Below are positions 22,465-23,943 of a stretch of 64,000 nt of DNA, in pieces. The number at the start of each line of letters is the position of its first letter. The first letter of the stretch is position 1. The stretch comes from SAR324 cluster bacterium REDSEA-S27_B3 (GTDB lineage Bacteria; SAR324; NAC60-12): assembly GCA_001627865.1 (NCBI GenBank), contig LUQO01000031.1, positions 62,001 to 126,000 of the forward strand, read 5' to 3'. The notes under the pieces were generated by a model that saw nothing but the letters and a program-made list of their open reading frames with translations, did no database searches and was not told the origin of the DNA. Made by a program: the position numbers and the translations under genes.

Positions 22465-23493
22465 TCATGTCAAGCCAAGTGCTTCATCCAGACCACACAT
22501 TAAATTCATATTTTGAATTGCCTGCCCGGAAGCCCCTTTGATTAAATTATCAAGGCTGCTGACAATCACCCAGTTTTGCCCGCTTTCATCACTTTCCGCA
22601 CCTATCATGCAGCGATTTGAGTGTACTGTCATTTTTATTTCCGGAAAATTTCCTTTCCCCATAAAATGAACAAATTCATTTTTTTCTGCAAATTCTGAAA
22701 AACAGCGGATAACTTTGCTTGCATCCATTGGTTTCCGGAAGTGCAGGTATATTGTGGACAGTATCCCACGATTTACCGGTAGCAAATGGGGAGTAAAAAT
22801 AACTTCACCGTTTTCGTCCGCACTGTATGAACTCAGTTCACTCAGGTACTGCTGGATTTCCGGCTGGTGCTGGTGTGACAACACTTTGTAAGCTTTAAAG
22901 TTTTCATTAACACTTACATAATTCATAGTATCATCTTCAACCCTTCCTCCGGCGCCGCTCACTCCTGATTTTGCGTCAATTACCGGTGGTCTGTCTAAAT
23001 CAGCAAGTAATTCAGCAAGTGGAAGAATTCCCAGCAGTGCACATGTTGAATAACAACCGGGGTTGGCAATCAGTCTTGCTGCAGATATCTGCTGTTTATA
23101 TAATTCAGGCAACCCGAAAACTGCTTCATTCAGTAATTCCGGGGAATCATGTGAAAGTTTATAGTATTTGGAAAAGACCTCTGTGTCCTCCAGTCTGTAG
23201 GCACCTGACAGGTCGATCACTAGAATTCCCTGATTCAGCAATTGTGGAACAAGCTCCAGGCTTGCCTGGTTAGGCACTGCAAGAAAAACAACATCGCAGT
23301 CAGTGACGTCAGACTCATTAGACTGAAAATTAAGATTATATTCCGACAGTTCAGGAAAAACGTCATTGACGCACTTGCCCAGATACTTGCTGGAAGTTAC
23401 CAGTTCGACGCTTGCTTCTGAATGTCTTGATAACAGATTCAGAAGTTCAAGTCCGGACAAACCGGCAGCTCCGATAATTCCTACGCGAACCAT
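22465..23493 (-). CDS. argC: N-acetyl-gamma-glutamyl-phosphate reductase
   Basis: VGIIGAAGLSGLELLNLL, NPGCYSTCALLGILPL, DAKSGVSGAGG. Confidence 0.97.
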   Translation of the reverse strand: MVRVGIIGAAGLSGLELLNLLSRHSEASVELVTSSKYLGKCVNDVFPELSEYNLNFQSNESDVTDCDVVFLAVPNQASLELVPQLLNQGILVIDLSGAYRLEDTEVFSKYYKLSHDSPELLNEAVFGLPELYKQQISAARLIANPGCYSTCALLGILPLAELLADLDRPPVIDAKSGVSGAGGRVEDDTMNYVSVNENFKAYKVLSHQHQPEIQQYLSELSSYSADENGEVIFTPHLLPVNRGILSTIYLHFRKPMDASKVIRCFSEFAEKNEFVHFMGKGNFPEIKMTVHSNRCMIGAESDESGQNWVIVSSLDNLIKGASGQAIQNMNLMCGLDEALGLT

Positions 23494-23838
23494 TTAACCA
23501 AACACCTCCTGATATAATTCAGGATTGAATCCAACAACAAATTCATGTCCAATTCTCCATGTCGGGGCTCTCAGGTTGCCGCTGGGACCAATCACATCTT
23601 TGAGAATCATTTGCTTGTCATCAGTGGAAGGATTCCACTCTCTCATTTTCTTACCCTTGCCTGTCCTTATCAGAGTCGCCGTCTGCAGCAACTCCCATGC
23701 GGACTGGCTGTCAATTTTTTCTTTGTTAGCAATAACACACGTTTCAACTGAAATATTTTTTGCGTCAAGAACCTCTTGTGCTCGTTTGCAGGAAGTTCAA
23801 CCGTTCCTGAAATATCCCCAATTAATTTTTTTACTCAT
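23494..23838 (-). CDS. Spx/ArsC-like thioredoxin-fold protein, candidate selenoprotein (in-frame UGA at 23797-23799)
   Basis: Read-through translation MSKKINWGYFRNG-U-TSCKRAQEVLDAKNISVETCVIANKEKIDSQSAWELLQTATLIRTGKGKKMREWNPSTDDKQMILKDVIGPSGNLRAPTWRIGHEFVVGFNPELYQEVFG*. UGA sits at the first Cys position of a CTSC motif; a hairpin follows at once; the frame is intact on both sides; stop abuts the argC ATG. Confidence 0.8.
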
Positions 23839-23943
23839 AATACCTCTTATATTTAGTGATTAATAAACAGGGTGGAGTCTAGCGATTCAATTCCTCACAT
23901 CAAATTCTTTCCATACATCATGCCATAAAGAATAACAGAAAGT

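Follow-up and report, generated by a model that had tools for sequence, protein, structure and literature searches.

A probable UxxC-type ArsC-like selenoprotein with a covarying SECIS hairpin in a SAR324 bacterium

In a 64,000-nt stretch of DNA from a SAR324 cluster bacterium (hereafter, the window), a minus-strand reading frame is interrupted by a single TGA, raising the question of whether this codon ends a gene or is read as selenocysteine (Sec). An initial annotation of the locus had proposed the latter, describing a frame that stays open to an ATG at 23838 apart from a TGA at 23797–23799. Direct reading of the sequence showed this frame to be exact: it runs from the ATG at 23838 to a TAA at 23496–23494, and the TGA at 23799–23797 is the sole internal stop. 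The gene (23494–23838, minus strand), delimited by this reading and by a match to the family NF041106, has 114 codons including one UGA and ends in TAA; an AAGAGG resembling a ribosome-binding site can be read at 23843–23848 (minus strand), 5′ of the ATG. The read-through protein has 114 residues and starts MSKKINWGYFRNGUTSCKRAQEVLDAKNISVETC. Plain stop-codon annotation yields just a 65-amino-acid fragment, and the read-through reading corrects the gene. A mechanical scan of the 64-kb window returned many further UxxC-like read-through open reading frames (ORFs), none of which was convincing by eye.

To which family does such a protein belong? In a profile search, it matched NCBIfam NF041106, ‘ArsC family (seleno)protein’, for which the cut-off is 85 bits, with a score of 119.3 bits, and the match was full-length (residues 5–109 on profile positions 1–107). 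All 27 aligned homologues match this profile as well, and in their alignment the active site U14-T-S-C17 is UxxC, as NF041106 requires (UxxC or CxxC). Residues invariant in the 27 sequences include W7, Y9, R11, Sec/Cys14, L24, G84, G87, L89, R90, P92 and G103, and C17 is nearly invariant. One homologue (locus L044, 1486–1830) carries UTTA in place of UxxC and lacks the resolving Cys. Searches against Pfam gave only glutaredoxin-type matches, which were weak and below cut-off, and the Spx/MgsR family TIGR01617 scored 22.2 bits, short of its cut-off of 75.05.

The family has already been catalogued. A 2008 Global Ocean Sampling survey names ‘Arsenate reductase 2’ with a UxxC motif (PMC2398784), and a 2026 review lists NF041106 as ‘Arsenate reductase-like protein, UxxC’, crediting the 2008 study (PMC13188914); from the shared motif and this citation, we infer that the two names denote the same group. 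The window protein shares with NF041106 (ArsC_rel_Se_1) the full-length match, the UxxC motif with Sec first and a Sec insertion sequence (SECIS) 3′ of the UGA, and differs in nothing of substance, the SECIS of the window’s genome having one mismatch in its lower stem. The selenoprotein ‘Arsenate reductase (ArsC) 1’ likewise belongs to the ArsC superfamily and has Sec in its catalytic site; however, its motif is UxxS, and the UxxC type found here is catalogued as a separate family (PMC1088965, PMC2398784).

The in-frame UGA (23797–23799, minus strand; Sec14 of the UTSC motif) is itself conserved. When 58 relatives were searched with the family profile, 25 scored over the cut-off, each with exactly one internal TGA. 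A search of 383 genomes with the protein found matches in 37, including the window’s own, with the remaining 36 at 29–83% identity. Homologues at 78–83% identity belong to metagenome-assembled genomes, mostly titled SAR324 cluster, and several of these encode proteins identical to those of the congeneric genomes. The plasmids searched contained no homologue. The Sec codon is TGA in 36 of the 37 genomes and TGC (Cys) in one (G186), and TGA is the only internal stop in all homologue rows but one. The Cys homologue that the initial annotation had called for, aligning C with U, exists, and its genome (99% complete) has no selA over the cut-off. Among close relatives, 25 have the UGA form, and selA scored over the cut-off in 22 of them. 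In the remaining three, the search gave a fragment in G028 and nothing in G006 (75% complete) or G016 (86%).

Substitutions between congeners show an excess of synonymous and third-position changes on both sides of the UGA, indicating that both sides are under coding constraint, that is, purifying selection. The segment from ATG to UGA is conserved too, with W7, Y9 and R11 invariant. Given this coding-type evolution, the conserved upstream segment and the recurrence of TGA in 36 of 37 genomes, the UGA-containing frame is more than a chance occurrence. A mechanical ORF of 65 amino acids does exist, and the UGA could in principle be a true stop; a shorter protein would then start at TTG 23691 and not include the upstream piece. 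However, conservation in all or nearly all homologues extends to the first 51 codons, including W7, Y9, R11, C17 and L24, and in an AlphaFold model the 65-residue product would be left without the first strands and helices and the active site of the fold, making this reading extremely improbable. A single in-frame stop near the N terminus would also fit a pseudogene or a sequencing error, the TGA having arisen from a plain Cys codon by nonsense mutation, but the identical TGA recurs down to 29% identity, is the sole internal stop in all rows but one and is flanked by sequence under purifying selection.

Could the organism insert Sec? The window’s genome is a 3.3-Mb draft, 88% complete, and the proposed check for selA, selB, selC and selD in it was positive, with selA (510 bits), selB (385 bits), selD (362 bits) and tRNA-Sec (57.5 bits) all over their cut-offs. 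The selD gene has an in-frame TGA of its own near its start (locus L018), which we take to be the known selenoprotein form of SelD. Nothing specific favours decoding of the UGA as some other residue, be it Trp or Gly in a recoded genome or Cys through a UGA suppressor. This idea is at odds with an adjoining methyltransferase ORF that ends in TGA, with the complete Sec machinery and with the Cys found in the one non-Sec homologue, whose genome has no selA over the cut-off, and we give it almost no credence.

Bacterial Sec insertion is expected to leave a hairpin downstream of the codon. According to published rules, a bacterial SECIS has a loop of 3–9 nt with G in the first two positions and a stem of 4–16 bp, 16–37 nt from the UGA (PMC13188914). 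A candidate, CAAGA-GGU-UCUUG, sits 18–37 nt 3′ of the UGA (23762–23781, minus strand; 5′ arm 23781–23774, apical loop GGU 23773–23771, 3′ arm 23770–23762) and agrees with these rules in its GGU loop, an upper stem of 5 bp (8 bp in congeners) and 23 nt from UGA to loop. In a gap-free alignment of 27 distinct sequences starting at the UGA, 88.4% of the cells in the hairpin (+18 to +37) were paired, and six of its eight pairs showed compensatory changes with both sides altered. The covariation score was 0.374, compared with 0.168 (s.d. 0.021) for shuffled alignments (0 of 500 reached it), and sliding the 3′ arm abolished the signal. Past the UGA, just four columns did not vary: column 27 (the loop G), column 29 (the loop U) and, in the 3′ arm, T32 and G34. 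When a covariance model was made from 23 sequences, with the window’s own left out, it gave the site 52.4 bits, part of which comes from resemblance to congeners in primary sequence; the next best match in the 64 kb had 12.3. Rfam gave no match in the window at the gathering threshold, nor in the gene region at a relaxed threshold. Synonymous-codon shuffling was uninformative for the window copy alone (43% of shuffles fold as well); most homologues gave 5% or less, but the test does not discriminate, because the Cys homologue also gave 4%.

This is not the stem that had been proposed at first. That stem, pairing GAACUUC with GAGGUUC and UGC with GCA, can form, being the minimum-free-energy fold of the isolated 38-mer (−10.4 kcal/mol), but it is not conserved and does not qualify as a SECIS: it begins inside the UGA, it places its loop about 9 nt away from that codon instead of 16–37, many homologues cannot form it, and its covariation score (0.162) is close to that of shuffled alignments (0.150; 92 of 500). 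The accompanying remark that the apical loop lacks an obvious GU arose because the wrong stem was examined; both the G and the U that are expected occur in the GGU loop of the conserved hairpin.

In the window’s genome, the conserved hairpin is weakened. Position 23779 (minus strand) carries A where the compared congeners have G, a synonymous change in an Ala codon that breaks one pair of the lower stem, so that the predicted folding energy becomes −4.2 kcal/mol instead of −8.5. Neither the GGU loop nor the 5 bp of the upper stem is affected. The window’s hairpin is thus less stable than the published prediction threshold of −7.5 kcal/mol or below (PMC13188914), which is a search threshold and not a functional definition, while hairpins elsewhere in the genus are stable enough to pass, with congeners at −8.5. 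The single mismatch (−4.2 versus −8.5), together with a competing fold that is stronger in isolation (−10.4), speaks against Sec decoding in the window itself. As the G-to-A change weakens the outer stem, decoding efficiency in this genome is uncertain, and the A may itself be an error of the draft assembly. A slightly degraded SECIS would also suit a pseudogene, but the covariation of the element across homologues does not, and we regard a pseudogene or sequencing error as highly implausible.

We are confident that the gene encodes a single-domain, thioredoxin-fold Spx/ArsC-like selenoprotein in which UGA is read as Sec through the downstream hairpin, as the family, phylogenetic and machinery evidence supports, and which probably acts as an oxidoreductase. 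At the UGA, SelB with GTP and Sec-tRNA-Sec would bind the hairpin 18–37 nt 3′ through its G/U apical loop, and Sec would be inserted where a CxxC motif has its N-terminal catalytic Cys.

What the protein does is suggested by its fold. The AlphaFold model has a mean pLDDT of 94.5, and profile and fold searches agree on the Spx/ArsC-like thioredoxin fold that had been claimed, with Spx and ArsC structures as best matches (TM-score ~0.5, E ~1e-4). Bacillus Spx (PDB 1z3e, 3gfk and 6ghb) shares the thioredoxin fold and a CxxC-type site near the N terminus, with Sec for Cys here, and its LR-x-P loop and C-terminal VGxN motif align with the window protein. However, identity to Spx in the fold search is 16–18%, the TM-score is only ~0.5 and the profile score is well under the Spx family cut-off. 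The UxxC motif with its resolving Cys, together with the fold, points to a likely role as a thiol/selenol oxidoreductase, in which Sec14 would attack an oxidized substrate, Cys17 would resolve the selenenylsulfide and a thioredoxin- or glutaredoxin-type donor would recycle the protein. The same selenoprotein might instead be a true arsenate reductase or an Spx-type RNA-polymerase-binding regulator, as its nearest structures and the weak TIGR01617 match could suggest. We consider this unlikely, given a TIGR01617 score so far under the cut-off (22 versus 75 bits), an LRAP sequence without the second Arg of the Spx LRRP and the fact that no ars genes were recognized by eye beside distant homologues; arsenate as a substrate is not specifically supported.

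Directly 3′ of the selenoprotein TAA starts argC (22465–23493, minus strand), with an AGGAGG of its own at 23510–23505. This adjacency is kept across the SAR324 genus and part of the family; distant homologues have other neighbours by eye, moaB-like and purN/purA-like. In two distant genomes (G283 and G145), the ORF that comes after the ArsC-type selenoprotein is glutaredoxin-like and also contains an in-frame TGA (VGUGPC), giving two adjacent selenoprotein candidates (L087, ~1580–1830, and the matching place in L088). Because the selenoprotein stop codon directly abuts the argC start in the SAR324 genus, UGA read-through could conceivably tune argC translation with selenium supply, a very improbable coupling; if true, the weakened SECIS in the window’s genome would represent a shift in it.

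The window gene is a sound but ordinary addition to an already catalogued selenoprotein family, and the NF041106 family in SAR324 bacteria now has a SECIS backed by covariation.
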